Part shown: piece after piece, positions 8,680-61,343 of the stretch
How the letters are laid out: the number at the start of each line of letters is the position of its first letter
Numbering within the stretch: position 1 is the stretch's first letter
Assembly (NCBI GenBank): GCA_019187485.1
Contig: JABAQR010000014.1
Coordinates: 1 to 64,000 of the forward strand
Source of the DNA: Lysobacterales bacterium
GTDB taxonomy: Bacteria; Pseudomonadota; Gammaproteobacteria; Xanthomonadales; SZUA-5
DNA length: 64,000 nucleotides
Direction: 5' to 3'
Program-made: the position numbers and the translations under genes
Notes under the pieces: generated by a model
What the model saw: the letters and a program-made list of their open reading frames with translations, nothing else
Database searches by the model: none
What the model was told of the DNA's origin: nothing

Positions 8680-8787
8680 GAACGCAAAGGACGAAAAGGA
8701 CGCAAAGTAGAGCGAAACCAGGATCGCTTCTTTGGCTTTGCTTTCCTTCGCGTCCTTGCTTTTCACCTTTGCGTCCTTTGCGTCCAA
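8680..8787. repeat. Imperfect palindrome with CAAAGGACG tandem arms (pheS-pheT gap)
   Basis: The left arm (8680-8720) reads ACGCAAAGGACGAAAAGGAC and onward. The right arm (8728-8787) ends TTTGCGTCCTTTGCGTCC. The arms are complementary with interruptions and are built on a 9-bp word, CAAAGGACG. The same word recurs at 11954, 13323 and 56753-56819. The element lies inside the pheS-pheT transcript. Confidence 0.75.
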
Positions 8788-41085: not shown

Positions 41086-41261
41086 CTGGGGCACGCGAAA
41101 CGGGGCACGGGGCACGGGAAAGGCCGGTTCCCCATGTCGCCGTGGGCTGCAGATGAAGTGCGCAGGCGGTCGCTTGTGCGAAACGCGCGTCGTGCGAGCT
41201 TTCCCGTGCCCCGTGCCCCGTGCCCCGCAACTTCCAACCCTGACCCCTGACCCCTGACCCC
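41086..41261. repeat. Heptad-arm palindrome between adaptor and first RND gene
   Basis: The left arm (41086-41122) contains tandem GGGGCAC words and ends GGGCACGGGAAAG. The right arm (41199-41229) is CTTTCCCGTGCCCCGTGCCC and on, in a 7-bp step. After it comes TGACCCC repeated three times at 41241-41261, directly before the start codon of the next gene. Confidence 0.85.
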
Positions 41262-44591: not shown

Positions 44592-44730
44592 GGGGTTGGG
44601 GGCTGGGGGCTGGGGCGCATGCCCGGTGCCCGTCGGCTGCGTGTGCGTTTGCGCAGTTGCCGATGTTCGGCTCGCAGCGTCCCGATCCAATTCCCGGCTG
44701 TGCGCCCGAGCCTCCAGCCCTCAGCCCCGC
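44592..44730. repeat. Heptad-arm palindrome between the two RND genes
   Basis: Left arm GGGGTTGGGGGCTGGGGGCT (44592-44611) with a GGGGGCT word; right arm GCCTCCAGCCCTCAGCCCCG (44710-44729). The two are complementary with a few mismatches and 98 bp of spacer. Confidence 0.75.
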
Positions 44731-47700: not shown

Positions 47701-47866
47701 TTACCCGATGGCGCGCGCGATCGCAGGCGGGCTGGTGTTCTCGACCGTGATCACGCTGCTGGTGCTGCCGACCATGTACGCCGCGTTGGAGGACCAGGGC
47801 GAGCGCGTCAAGCGGGCCTGGCGGCGCGCTGGCGGACGCGCGGCGATGGCGGCGTCCCAAGCGTGA
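44774..47866 (+). CDS. RND-family efflux permease (HAE1-type), second copy
   Basis: 1030 residues. Begins MTLAEIALKRPITTVMLFIS; the porter motif FFPELDAPFILVQVPYPGA and the charged membrane helix GLLLGIGMLVDNAVVVTES (proton relay Asp) are typical. It is related to, but clearly diverged from, the first permease, so the pair probably forms a heterotrimeric pump as in MdtBC-like systems. This is inferred from two permeases following one adaptor. No TolC-type channel is encoded nearby. Confidence 0.94.
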   Translation: MTLAEIALKRPITTVMLFISCVVFGLLSARLLKLEFFPELDAPFILVQVPYPGATPKEVEREIVRPLEESLATVSGIDNMSANADENGATFFLVFDWDRNIKVKLSEVRERVDAARAELPSDIQRIQVLKFSTNDEPVLQVRLSSTTGNLLDAYDLLERRIKRPLERIPGVAAVELSGVEPNEVRIDLLPERIAAHNVDLNQLSQRLSSANFATSAGLIHDGEHRYRVQPVGELRSLREYENLVVGAAGLRLKDIAEVRYAQREINFRRILNGHYAVGVDIRRERGANLVQVCADVMAEIRRIEASGALAGIELYIIGDQGEGVTSSLGELSKSGWEGMLFSVLVLWFFLRHWPSTLMVAVSVPICISISLGALYFIGLTLNVLTMMGLLLGIGMLVDNAVVVTESIYQQREKRPHDKVGTAIEGTRMVQLAVSCGTLTSIIVFLPNVFGSTTQVGLFLYYVAVPMSVALLASWFVAVSIIPMLAARIEPPKGLAQVKIVERWKQAYGRLLRWTLEHRNWSWVGIVAILCSVAIPAAFVKTDFFGGDGDRDFHIGYEFNGRYRLEQMEPAARTVEAWLLSHKEQFEIETVYTWLSEDQGMQTRLQLTKGDKARRPVEEIREEVRKGLPKLAIAKPVIDMRFGPGGGNSGGGEATSMQVAITGDSTEVLNELAREVARLLAADENFADVRVDNAREQQELQLRVDRERAASLGFEPAQIGRLVQVAMRGVPLREFRQGDTEVPVWLRFKDAEKLSLDELKRIRVTRADGESVPLSALVTVDMTPGPSAISRQNRKTSASISLELKPRGDMRVARAAIESILEDYPFPAGYAYDLGQRFSEDQEAANEMLFLLLLSIVLIYMVMAALFESVLYPLSILSSIVFAVVGVWWTFWIWETTFSVMAFIGIMILTGVVVNNGIVLIEHVNTLRRAGHGREDALVLGGMERLRPILITTGTTFLGLFPLCISEVGIGGGGPAYYPMARAIAGGLVFSTVITLLVLPTMYAALEDQGERVKRAWRRAGGRAAMAASQA

Positions 47867-47869
47867 TCC

Positions 47870-47993
47870 TGGGGGCGCGAGGGCAGATGGACCGGCAGAC
47901 GCGGACTTGTCGCGGCGTTATGGCCCGGGCCGACGTTGCTGCACGCACACCGGGCTTCCCGGCATGCGAGCTTTCTCGTGCCCTCGTGCCCCG
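47870..47993. repeat. Partial heptad-type palindrome after the RND operon
   Basis: Left arm GGGGCGCGAGGGCA (from about 47871) is complementary, with one mismatch, to TGCCCTCGTGCCCC (47979-47992). The segment GCGAGCTTTCTCGTGCC closely matches GCGAGCTTTCCCGTGCC in the element at 41086-41261, so the two share ancestry. Confidence 0.65.
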
Positions 47994-48638: not shown

Positions 48639-48709
48639 AGGCGCGCGCCCTCGGCGCGCGTTGCGCGATTGTAGACTCAAGCGCTCGTGCGATGATCGCG
48701 GGGACGGGC

Positions 48710-50011
48710 ATGCGCAGTGTACGGGTCTGGGCCGTCTTCGGCCTGCTGTGGGCTGGCGTTTCGACGGCGCAAGTGCCGCCCGCCTTCATGGCCGGAGACT
48801 GGTGCGCGCTGGACGGTGGGCGGCGTTTCGAGGAGCGCTGGACCGGGGCCGTCGATGGGCGCATGCACGCACTCGCGCGCACCATCGACGACGGCCGCCT
48901 GATCGGCTTCGAGTTCCTGCGCATCGAGCCCATCGACGGCGTGCTGACCTATCTCGCGCAACCGGGCGGCGGTGCGCCGGTGCCGTTCCACGAGACCGAG
49001 CGCGGTCCGCAGCGCATCGTCTTTGCCAATCCGCAGCACGACTATCCACAGCGCATCGAGTACTACCGCGACGCCGAGGGCCTGCACGCGCTGGTGTCGG
49101 GCTCATCGACATCCGGCGAATCGCCGCAGCGTTTCGATTTCCGCCCCGGCGCCTGCGCGCCTGCCGCAGCCGTCGCAGCGGCACCGGCGCGCACCATGGC
49201 CGAGGTCATCGAATCCTCAAAGCCAGCCGACTGGCGTCGCCCGGACCCGGCGCGCACGCTCTATCTCGAGATCGAGGCCGGGCGCGTCGTCATCGAACTC
49301 GCACCGGCCTTCGCACCGAAGCACGTTGCCAACATCCTCGCGCTCGCCCGCAGCGGCTACTACGACGGCCTCGTGATTCTGCGCGTGCAGGACAATTTCG
49401 TGGTCCAGTGGGGTGATCCGGACGCGGGCGATGCCGAAAGACGCCGGTCGCTCAAGGCGGGCGTGGCCACCCTGGCCGCCGAGTTCACCCGCCCGGCGAG
49501 CGTCGATCTTGCTTTCCATCCCTTGCCGGATCGTGATGGCTGGGCCGCGCAGACCGGGTTTGCGGACGGCTTCCCGGCCGCGCGCGAAGGCGGTCGAATG
49601 TGGCTGACCCACTGCTACGGAACACTCGGGGTCGGTCGCGACAACGAGGTCGATTCCGGCGGTGGCACCGAGTTGTACGTCGTGATCGGCCACGCGCCGC
49701 GCCAGCTCGACCGCAACATCACCGTCGCCGGGCGCGTGCTGCAGGGCATGGAACTGCTTTCCAGCTTGCCGCGCGGACCGGCACCGATGGGTTTCCACGA
49801 AAAGGCAGAGCAGCGCGTGCCGATTCTGCGCGTGCGCGTCGCCGCCGATTTGCCCGAAGCCGAGCGTACGCACATTGAGGTGCTGCGCAGCGACACCGCC
49901 ACCTTCGATGCTCTCGTCGAATCCCGCCGCAATCGTCGCGACCCCTGGTACAAGGTGCCGGCGGGTCATATCGATGTGTGCTCGGTGCCGGTGCCGGTGC
50001 GTGCCTATTGA
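48710..50011 (+). CDS. Secreted DUF6265-cyclophilin fusion (peptidylprolyl isomerase)
   Basis: 433 residues with the ATG at 48710, chosen because it directly precedes a signal peptide ([21 protein letters not shown]); an ATG at 48692 is also in frame. Residues about 25-140 match the DUF6265 pattern ([33 protein letters not shown]). Residues about 180-385 form a cyclophilin-like isomerase domain ([50 protein letters not shown]). It should catalyse proline isomerisation in the periplasm. The fusion of these two domains is unusual. Confidence 0.85.
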
Positions 50012-50015
50012 GGCA

Positions 50016-50080
50016 AACGGTTGTCGGCAGCTCGCCAGTTCCGGACTTGCGCGCTTTGCTGCCGACAGCCAACAACCGTT
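50016..50080. repeat. Short heptad-arm palindrome with unequal arms
   Basis: AACGGTTG-TCGGCAGC (50016-50031) faces GCTGCCGA-CAGCCAA-CAACCGTT (50058-50080). The right arm contains exactly one extra 7-bp word. It lies between the convergent cyclophilin and yggS genes and could also act as a terminator for both. Confidence 0.85.
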
Positions 50081-50083
50081 CTG

Positions 50084-50761
50084 TCAGGCGCGCGCCCCGA
50101 ACAACGCGCTCCCGACGCGCACCATGGTCGCGCCTTCCGCGAGCGCGAGTTCGAAATCCTCGCTCATACCCATCGACAGCGTGTCGACGCCGCTGTGGCG
50201 CTCGCGCAGCCCTTCGAACAAGGCGCGCAGCGCGCGGAATCCTGCGCCACGTCGCGTCAGGTCCGGCCACGGTTTCGGGATCGCCATCAATCCACGCAGG
50301 CGCAGCCGCGGCTCGGCGGCGACCCGGTCCGCAAGGGCGTCGATATCTGCGGGCGCGACGCCGGACTTGCTGTCCTCATCGTCCAGGTTGACCTGCACCA
50401 GCACGTTCAGCGGTGGCGCGTCGGTGGGTCGCTCGCGCGCCAGCAGCGGCACCAGCTTGGCGCGGTCCAGGGTCTGCAGCCAGTCGAAGTGGCGCGCGAC
50501 TTCGCGGCACTTGTTCGACTGCAAGGGCCCAATCAGGTGCCATTTGATGCCGCAATCGGCCAGATCGCGCTGCTTGGCGAGCGCTTCCTGCACGTAGTTC
50601 TCGCCGAAGGCCGTTTGCCCGAGCCGGTACAGCTCGCGCACGCGCGCAGCCGGCTGGGTCTTGCTGACGGCCACCAGCGTGGCGGGCGCCGCGCTCGCGG
50701 CCGCGATGCGCGTGCGGATCGCGGTGAGTCGATCGAAGGGGGCGTTCGCGACCTCGGTCAT
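50084..50761 (-). CDS. yggS: PLP homeostasis protein (YggS/PLPBP)
   Basis: Binds pyridoxal phosphate and buffers the vitamin B6 pool; no enzyme activity is known. 225 residues with the ATG at 50761; a start 12 codons upstream is less likely. The PLP lysine lies in LVAVSKTQPA; FGENYVQEAL, KWHLIGPLQSNK and SMGMSEDFELALAEGATMVR are characteristic. It is divergent from pilT, the usual neighbour in proteobacteria. Confidence 0.95.
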   Translation of the reverse strand: MTEVANAPFDRLTAIRTRIAAASAAPATLVAVSKTQPAARVRELYRLGQTAFGENYVQEALAKQRDLADCGIKWHLIGPLQSNKCREVARHFDWLQTLDRAKLVPLLARERPTDAPPLNVLVQVNLDDEDSKSGVAPADIDALADRVAAEPRLRLRGLMAIPKPWPDLTRRGAGFRALRALFEGLRERHSGVDTLSMGMSEDFELALAEGATMVRVGSALFGARA

Positions 50762-50857
50762 GCCTGTCGATATCGGGCCGTGGGCGGTGCAAGTCAACCG
50801 CGCCGACGGGCGACGTGGCTATACTCGATCGCCGACCGACGAAGGGCAGGGTGCTGC

Positions 50858-51898
50858 ATGGATATCGCCGAGCTGCTGGCGTTCAGCGTCAAGAACAAGG
50901 CTTCAGACCTGCACCTGTCCGCGGGCCTGCCGCCGATGATCCGCGTCGATGGCGATGTCCGACGCATCAATATTCCGGCACTGGACCACAAGTCGGTGCA
51001 CGGCCTCGTCTACGACATCATGTCGGACAAACAGCGCCGCGACTACGAGGAGTACCTCGAAGTCGACTTCTCCTTCGAGATCCCCGGTCTGGCGCGCTTC
51101 CGTGTCAATGCCTTCAACCAGAACCGCGGCGCCGCCGCGGTGTTCCGCACCATTCCCTCGGAGATCCTGACCCTTGAGGATCTCGCCGCGCCGAAGGTGT
51201 TCAAGGAACTGATCGACGTACCTCAGGGCCTGATTCTGGTCACCGGGCCGACCGGTTCGGGCAAGTCGACCACCCTCGCAGCGATGCTCGACCACATCAA
51301 CAAGAACGAGTACGCGCATCTGCTTTCGGTCGAGGATCCGATCGAGTTCGTGCACACCTCGAACAAGTGCCTGATCAACCAGCGCGAAGTGCATCGCGAC
51401 ACCCACGGCTTCAACGAGGCCCTGCGCTCGGCGCTGCGCGAGGACCCGGACTACATCCTGGTCGGCGAGTTGCGCGACCTCGAGACCATCCGCCTGGCGC
51501 TGACCGCCGCGGAAACCGGACACCTGGTCTTCGGCACCCTGCACACCTCGTCGGCAGCCAAGACCATCGACCGCATCATCGACGTGTTCCCCGCCGGCGA
51601 GAAGCCGATGGTGCGTTCGATGCTGTCGGAGTCGCTGCGCGCGGTGATCGCGCAGTCGCTGCTGAAGAAAGTCGGCGGCGGCCGCATCGCGGCGCACGAG
51701 ATCATGGTCGGCATCCCCGCCATCCGCAACCTGATCCGCGAGGACAAGGTCGCGCAGATGTACTCGTCGATCCAGACCGGCGCCAACTACGGCATGCAGA
51801 CCCTCGACCAGTGCCTGCAGGACCTGGTCAAGCGCGGCCTGGTCACGCGCCAGCAGGCGATGAGCTACGCCAAGGACAAGCGCCTGTTCGAAGCCTGA
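50858..51898 (+). CDS. pilT: Type IV pilus retraction ATPase
   Basis: Hexameric ATPase that powers pilus retraction and twitching motility. 346 residues. MDIAELLAFSVKNKASDLHL is the canonical N-terminus; Walker A GPTGSGKS, the Asp box ALREDPDYILVGE, the His box GHLVFGTLHTSSA and the C-terminal AIRNLIREDK are all present. The ATG at 50858 is divergent from yggS. The partner pilU is not in the window. Confidence 0.97.
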   Translation: MDIAELLAFSVKNKASDLHLSAGLPPMIRVDGDVRRINIPALDHKSVHGLVYDIMSDKQRRDYEEYLEVDFSFEIPGLARFRVNAFNQNRGAAAVFRTIPSEILTLEDLAAPKVFKELIDVPQGLILVTGPTGSGKSTTLAAMLDHINKNEYAHLLSVEDPIEFVHTSNKCLINQREVHRDTHGFNEALRSALREDPDYILVGELRDLETIRLALTAAETGHLVFGTLHTSSAAKTIDRIIDVFPAGEKPMVRSMLSESLRAVIAQSLLKKVGGGRIAAHEIMVGIPAIRNLIREDKVAQMYSSIQTGANYGMQTLDQCLQDLVKRGLVTRQQAMSYAKDKRLFEA

Positions 51899-56752: not shown

Positions 56753-56819
56753 GTCCGCAAAGGACGCAAAGGACGCAAAGGAATCAAGTGCTTCTGCCTT
56801 CTTTGCGTCCTTTGCGGAC
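56753..56819. repeat. CAAAGGACG palindrome (inner)
   Basis: GTCCGCAAAGGACGCAAAGG (from 56753), followed by a third tandem copy, pairs with TTTGCGTCCTTTGCGGAC (56802-56819). The word period is 9 bp. Only one mismatch occurs over the terminal 21 bp. Confidence 0.85.
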
Positions 56820-56953
56820 AAAAAGACTCCCGTCGGTAGGTTCCTTCGAGCAGCACCTTGCCAGGAACGTTCCGAAAACCCAGTCACCTCCCGGTCCCGC
56901 GCTCTTCCCTCTTTCCTCTCCCTTTTCCATTTTCCTTTTTCCTCTTCCCGGCT

Positions 56954-60181: not shown

Positions 60182-60226
60182 GTGGGAGTTCCACCCGCAC
60201 CGAAGCGGTGTGGGTGGAACTCCCAC
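60182..60226. repeat. REP-like palindrome
   Basis: GTGGGAGTTCCACCC (60182-60196) pairs perfectly with GGGTGGAACTCCCAC (60212-60226), with the stem extended inward by GCACC/GGTGT (one wobble) around GAAGC. A smaller GCGGGT/ACCCGC hairpin lies just upstream near 60140-60160. It lies 6 bp after the stop of the AIM24-like gene and could be a terminator as well. Confidence 0.8.
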
Positions 60227-61237: not shown

Positions 61238-61343
61238 GGCTGGTCCTGGTTGTCGGTTGTCGGTTGTAGGTGGTCAGTTTGTCGGCAGCGGAATGCTGGC
61301 GTGCGATGGCTGCCGACCACCAGCAACCGACGACCAGCAACCC
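61238..61343. repeat. Heptad-arm palindrome with GGTTGTC words
   Basis: The left arm (61238-61289) contains GGTTGTC-GGTTGTC-GGTTGTA in tandem and ends TTTGTCGGCAGC. The right arm (61308-61343) is GGCTGCCGACCACCAGCAAC and on, its imperfect complement. It occupies the whole gap between the AIM24-like and DUF533 genes. Confidence 0.88.

Follow-up and report, generated by a model that had tools for sequence, protein, structure and literature searches.

An irregular palindrome between two convergent genes of a Lysobacterales bacterium is, in our judgement, probably a short copy within a dispersed hairpin family whose arms change mostly by whole seven-base units, likely through slippage. The members of this family differ by whole units from arm to arm and, at a few sites, from species to species. 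The two-arm copies share an inward polarity, and most elements lie close beside stop codons.

A palindrome with arms one heptamer apart

The element lies in a 64,000-nt stretch of contig JABAQR010000014.1, hereafter called the window, and fills the 72-nt gap separating two convergent stop codons. Gene ends are those of a codon-usage gene caller trained on the window. The downstream gene, which we take to be of the YggS type, has an uncertain start codon (50797 or 50761). The features of the window that concern us are as follows.

48692-50011, plus strand: upstream gene, DUF6265 and cyclophilin-type peptidyl-prolyl isomerase, ending 4 nt before the element
50016-50031, plus strand: left arm, composed of AA, heptamer CGGTTGT (50018-50024) and hinge heptamer CGGCAGC (50025-50031)
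50032-50057, no strand: loop of 26 nt
50058-50080, minus strand: right arm, composed of hinge GCTGCCG (50058-50064), diverged heptamer ACAGCCA (50065-50071), heptamer ACAACCG (50072-50078) and TT
50065-50071, minus strand: extra heptamer of the right arm, ACAGCCA in the family register
50084-50797, minus strand: convergent gene, alanine-racemase-N-domain protein, with its stop codon 3 nt past the element
61247-61343, no strand: second family member, occupying the space that separates two codirectional genes; the last unit of its left arm is 8 nt long (extra T)

Read directly, the left arm is AACGGTTG followed by TCGGCAGC, and the right arm is GCTGCCGA, CAGCCAA (50066-50072) and CAACCGTT; the entire site runs AACGGTTGTCGGCAGC, 26 nt, GCTGCCGACAGCCAACAACCGTT. 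An earlier sequence-only reading had described the arms as 8+8 and 8+7+8 bp, one heptamer apart, and the letters of 50016-50080 bear this out: the arms measure 16 and 23 nt and are complementary throughout save for 7 additional bases. Because CA stands at either end of these bases, their position is ambiguous by 2 nt. In the register of the family the site reads AA, CGGTTGT, CGGCAGC, 26 nt, GCTGCCG, ACAGCCA, ACAACCG, TT, with one unit on the left (n = 1) and two on the right (m = 2). The inner right unit, ACAGCCA, is two transitions away from ACAACCG, leaving 5 of 7 letters equal.

The site folds with z-scores of -2.40 as RNA and -2.43 as DNA, and 3 of 200 shuffled sequences did equally well in each case. 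Exact 8+8 stems with a single bulge of at most 12 nt occur at five places in the window, four intergenic and one in a predicted gene. The same search of 100 first-order Markov sequences of window length gave a mean of 0.28 and a maximum of 2, and a bulge of exactly 7 appeared in 4 of the 100. By itself, CAGCCAA is about as frequent in the window as expected (7 occurrences against 7.2), and the right arm matches only itself there. At gathering thresholds, Rfam has nothing at the site, its matches being three tRNAs and the SRP RNA.

The element belongs to a dispersed family

Parsing of matches across the genome (3.83 Mb, 81 contigs) revealed a common architecture, (CGGTTGT)n-CGGCAGC-loop-GCTGCCG-(ACAACCG)m. 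The pattern CGGTTGTCGGCAGC has 42 matches with at most one mismatch, against 5 for its reversed control, and CGGTTGTCGGTTGTCGG has 49 with at most two mismatches, against 3 in the control. These resolve into 31 extragenic copies, 14 of them with two arms. The 31 derive from 45 match places, after we dropped 10 inside predicted genes as chance matches and four single or other-word matches (C4:41186, C5:13609, C7:72662 and C14:41844), merged the halves of a copy on C10 and added C1:79800. The two-arm set is 15 typed pairs minus one whose left arm was not located as typed.

The family consists of tandem 7-nt units in register, which places it among heptameric repeats. The 40 hinge-anchored arms carry one to four units each; the exception is the left arm at 61247, which has five if its 8-nt unit is included. 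The most regular copy (C1:154232-154339) carries four units per arm. The loop measures 37-41 nt in 9 of the 14 two-arm copies and 26 nt in the focal one. Among 299 sampled genomes of the order, two units plus hinge (at most one mismatch) were found in this genome only. The bare two-unit word is present in six of nine genomes of the bacterial family and in many phyla.

Other repeats in the window and in related genomes

The window holds further repeats. The palindrome at 41100-41227 has arms of ACGGGGC heptamers that differ in unit number, and a CCCTGAC heptamer array comes after it at 41238-41261. Two further arrays, at 44592-44615 and 56902-56946, are made of the heptamers GGGGCTG and CTCTTTC respectively. 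Decayed GGGGCAC-type sequence runs into AAAGCTCGC on the minus strand at about 47926-47980, some 100 nt past a predicted gene end at 47866. A palindrome at 60182-60226, with 21-nt arms GTGGGAGTTCCACCCGCACCG and CGGTGTGGGTGGAACTCCCAC and a 3-nt loop, is REP-like in appearance. Palindromes whose arms are 9-mers (AAAGGACGC) stand at 8682-8785 and 56753-56819, each with a 9-nt bulge in one arm.

The two-unit form of AAAGGACGC has 48 matches in the genome and none in its control. At one locus (C10:41036-41360) a AAAGGACGC palindrome sits between CGGTTGT arms, as if inserted in the loop. In the genus-mate G002, the stretches L318-L336 are long intergenic regions of nested palindromes, in which GGTTGTC-type arrays tend to be outermost, adjoining the genes, and REP-like and GTCCAGAC-type palindromes occupy the interior. 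In the related genome G001, exact copies of the palindrome half GGTCCAGACTTGTC stand at 8 of 21 sites that carry heptamer elements in the genome studied here (L380-L384, L395, L398 and L399).

Arms differ mostly by whole units

The 7-nt register is kept along the arms: 28 of 37 GTTG words past the second unit fall in the expected class modulo 7. Some of the nine off-phase words are T-for-C variants that make GTTG in another phase, and some reflect the extra T at 61247. Arms are equal in 4 of the 14 two-arm copies and differ by one to three whole units in the other 10. Arms taken from one copy resemble each other no more than arms taken from different copies do (likeness 0.804 within and 0.793 between copies, a level attained by 27% of 5000 shuffles of the 14 copies), which suggests that each arm drifts independently. 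This comparison speaks against selection on pairing, and the pairing of the stem seems not to be under active maintenance. Gene conversion or compensatory change keeping the arms alike, which we also considered, is likewise unsupported by it.

G002 carries repeats of the same kind. There, GGTTGTCGGTTGTCGG has 398 matches with at most one mismatch, and arrays reach about 25 units, against one to five per arm in the genome studied here. Across 24 arrays (204 units in 19 stretches), neighbouring units are identical in 120 of 180 pairs, compared with a shuffled mean of 72 and maximum of 91. Identical adjacent units are a mark of local unit duplication.

Comparison with G001 allowed us to follow individual sites between species. 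A 1.7-kb stretch round 61247-61343 aligns end to end at 78%, with the element in both genomes. Its right arm (61309-61343) has four units here and two in G001, a difference of 14 bp, while the left arm at 61247 differs by 8 nt, that is, one unit plus the extra T. In the stretches examined from five other genomes of the bacterial family no such arms were seen (in G004, over about 60 nt past the gene). A second 14-bp step, this one with matched units, was found at C2:142512, where the right arm has four units here and two in G001, with ACAATCA second in both. Counts by eye at four more sites gave 2 units against about 5 in G001 (C7:69697), 4 against 2-3 (C7:103105), 3 against about 12 (C48:9855, left arm) and 1 against 4 (C5:11771, right arm, with irregular left spacing).

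The sites other than 61247 come from flank searches with 27 further loci, in which 40 of 375 first-look candidates went on to scoring. For 13 loci both flanks fell on one contig, for 8 there was one flank or there were flanks on two contigs, and for 6 there was nothing or only short, weak matches. We read 20 of the resulting 21 sites (leaving out L004) plus the 61247 site, counting units by eye. Partly by eye, these 21 readings divide in G001 into 7 sites with CGGTTGT-type arms, 4 with GGGGCAC-type arrays and 10 with neither. Each orthologous site taken singly is weak evidence: a reversed two-unit word equals the score of the genuine word at 13 of the 21, which leaves the identification of arms to the register as read by eye; this control is partly uninformative, as a reversed repeat holds the same words. 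At the focal site, the 77%-complete G001 gave no match, and in G002 other palindromes occupy the 674 nt that separate the two flanking matches.

At least four changes in the family depart from 7-nt steps: the extra T at 61247 (left arm), deficits of 3 nt at C1:79800 and in the right hinge at C6:46636, and, at the C5:11771 site, the uneven spacing seen in G001. The sequence-only reading had claimed that heptamers are gained or lost singly, as units, and had proposed a comparison of heptamer number. At the level of the family the whole-unit part of that claim stands, on the shared register, the unequal arms and the identical neighbours in G002, as it does at the two clear orthologous sites. Made here between species, the comparison shows whole-unit steps to be usual, with a minority of other changes. 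The claim fits less well with the focal unit, with its 5 of 7 identical letters, with steps that often span two or more units, and with the exceptions just listed.

Slipped-strand mispairing between neighbouring heptamers would most likely account for gains and losses that mostly concern whole units and affect each arm separately. At the focal site it would have left one arm with one unit and the other with two, after which the inner unit of the longer arm would have taken two transitions. The opposite direction, a loss on the left and not a gain on the right, has chances only slightly below even: the right arm would be an old two-unit arm with a diverged inner unit, and the left would have lost, or never had, its second unit. 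That direction draws on an alternative, inner register in which 13 nt (GGTTGTCGGCAGC with GCTGCCGACAGCC) pair with one G-U pair, as in the predicted RNA fold. The repeat finder returns both registers, and unequal arms are common in the family. Against it, the AA and TT flanks lengthen the match in the outer register only. Direction is the sole difference between the two accounts.

Copies lie beside stop codons with inward polarity

The 31 copies are distributed among codirectional (20), convergent (8) and divergent (3) gene pairs. Leaving aside the three between divergent genes, which have no stop-codon neighbour, 25 of the remaining 28 lie within 12 nt of a stop codon, where uniform placement in the same gaps averages 12.8 copies and reaches at most 19 in 5000 runs. 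The median distance to the nearest stop codon is 5 nt, and 14 of the 20 codirectional copies lie closer to the stop codon than to the other gene boundary. The outer end of the arm faces the stop codon of a same-strand gene in 22 of 37 arms here and 15 of 28 in G002, mostly at 12 nt or less. In the remaining arms (15 here, 13 in G002) it faces the start of an opposite-strand gene, with a wider spread. All 14 two-arm copies are convergent inverted pairs with the G-rich strand first, pointing inward.

Two other families of the genome bear comparison, their distances to stop codons being measured at those places for which loci were available. CACGGGG, a second heptamer family, is likewise placed at stop codons (median distance 2 nt over 12 places), and the 9-mer family AAAGGACGC lies away from them (median 49 nt over 19 places). 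In every pair scored for these two families, 18 of 18 and 10 of 10, the G- or purine-rich strand comes first, a count that omits locus L276, whose repeat falls outside the scanned stretch. For CACGGGG the reversed-pattern control is uninformative, the reversed repeat holding the same words. The inner motif AAGCTCGC is common to both heptamer families (5 of 42 and 4 of 23 arms; at most 1 in shuffles), as though two words had been joined to a single core. Beyond this genome, we examined (TTGTCGG)3 in many phyla at 80 loci, kept from at least 120 stretches. Among the 80 matches listed, 18, from 14 assemblies, are followed by an inverted array no more than 200 nt away, none is preceded by one and 62 show neither; shuffled controls gave none.

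The focal site could be read as a bidirectional transcription terminator of its two genes, with the heptamers incidental, since it occupies the gap of two convergent stop codons and folds well. We consider this unlikely: positions 49000-51000 contain no terminator-like site (a stem followed by a T-run), 20 of the 31 copies are flanked by codirectional genes and 3 by divergent genes, and copies do not preserve the pairing of their arms. The lack of a terminator-like site and the unkept pairing together make a strong structural function doubtful, and because pairing is apparently unmaintained, any function is probably weak or resides in the word and not in the pairing.

A neutral or weakly useful extragenic hairpin, its arms changing by slippage, is the best account of the element. 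In RNA it would form a predicted 13-bp stem a few bases past each of the convergent stop codons, which may hinder 3' exonucleases or help to end transcription. Forming such a hairpin in the RNA where genes end is its likeliest putative effect.

Relation to known repeats

Heptamer repeats are known from several groups. Rehm et al. (2015; PMC4692102) described, in the parts cited here, mostly intergenic repeats of GGGAATC in Xanthomonas and GGGGA(C/T)T in Nostoc, which prefer the sense strand near stop codons. Arrays of four units are commonest, with up to 26, and unit number varies among related species while the single or paired type is usually kept (PMC4692102). Many arrays form convergent inverted pairs, with 70 cases in Xcc and 75 in Xac; the functional role of these repeats was, in the words cited, still to be elucidated (PMC4692102). 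The family described here resembles those accounts in its 7-nt period, intergenic position, convergent pairs, nearness to stop codons and length differences between species. It differs in having one to four units, rarely five, with GG in place of GGG, and in its word CGGTTGT, its fixed hinge CGGCAGC and its inner motif shared with a second heptamer family. A GGGNATC word with runs of three or more G is absent from its unit, CGGTTGT, and it is not the GGGAATC family itself.

MacGregor (2015; PMC4679880) reported TAACTGA repeats in Beggiatoaceae, cyanobacteria and Bacteroidetes. As given in the parts cited, these are nearly all direct and lie mostly just upstream of a start codon, and some sets are split by related 7-mers. 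The words are two transitions apart in rotation (AACTGAT and AACCGAC), and arrays here likewise mix related units; unlike the direct repeats before starts, ours form inverted pairs beside stop codons. A 2007 report, as presented in parts of both papers (PMC4692102, PMC4679880), found heptameric simple sequence repeats over-represented in bacteria and proposed polymerase slippage. Its 7-nt period agrees with ours; it is a general statistic, and the parts cited do not describe an inverted architecture.

Resemblance to the Xanthomonas repeats in polarity and stop-codon placement (parts of PMC4692102), together with a GG every 7 nt, might suggest a G-quadruplex element in which G runs are decisive. 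With G runs of only two, and focal arms of one and two units, we find this very unlikely.

REP and REPIN elements are extragenic palindromes in many copies, associated with RAYT and carrying a tetranucleotide tag, GTAG or CGTC, at the foot of the stem. Like them, the family is dispersed, multi-copy, extragenic, palindromic and close to gene ends. Unlike them, its arms are made of tandem heptamers, and the focal element lacks GTAG, CTAC, CGTC and GACG. A profile for PF01797 (Y1_Tnp) has no match in the genome, although it finds matches in 5 of 14 named genomes. RAYT-driven movement is unlikely because no RAYT was found in the assembled genome, and a REP-type element mobilised by such a transposase is an extremely improbable reading. 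That the palindrome arose by chance and took up 7 unrelated nucleotides, as a single site with a diverged insert might suggest, is refuted by a family that is itself real and by an insert in phase with the family unit and matching it in 5 of 7 letters, and we give it negligible probability.

In the openly licensed literature we found no paper on CGGTTGT arms and their hinge. The kind of repeat is known from Xanthomonas, Nostoc and Beggiatoaceae, and the word and hinge are unreported in the literature searched, so we regard the family as a new form of a known class. A broader idea, which we think decidedly unlikely, is that heptamer-armed hairpins are one modular kind across phyla. They would combine an inner core with interchangeable 7-nt words, with the G-rich strand inward and the outer ends at gene boundaries, most tightly at stop codons, through an unrecognised activity that copies 7-nt words beyond slippage. 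The motif AAGCTCGC common to two words and the inward pairs in every set examined are hints in that direction.

What began as one odd palindrome yields a testable rule: a heptamer-armed hairpin at a stop codon changes mostly in whole units, each arm separately, and points inward. Seven-base words are common in the intergenic repeats of several bacterial phyla. With one to five units per arm in one genome and up to about 25 in another, this genus is a good place to watch the process.
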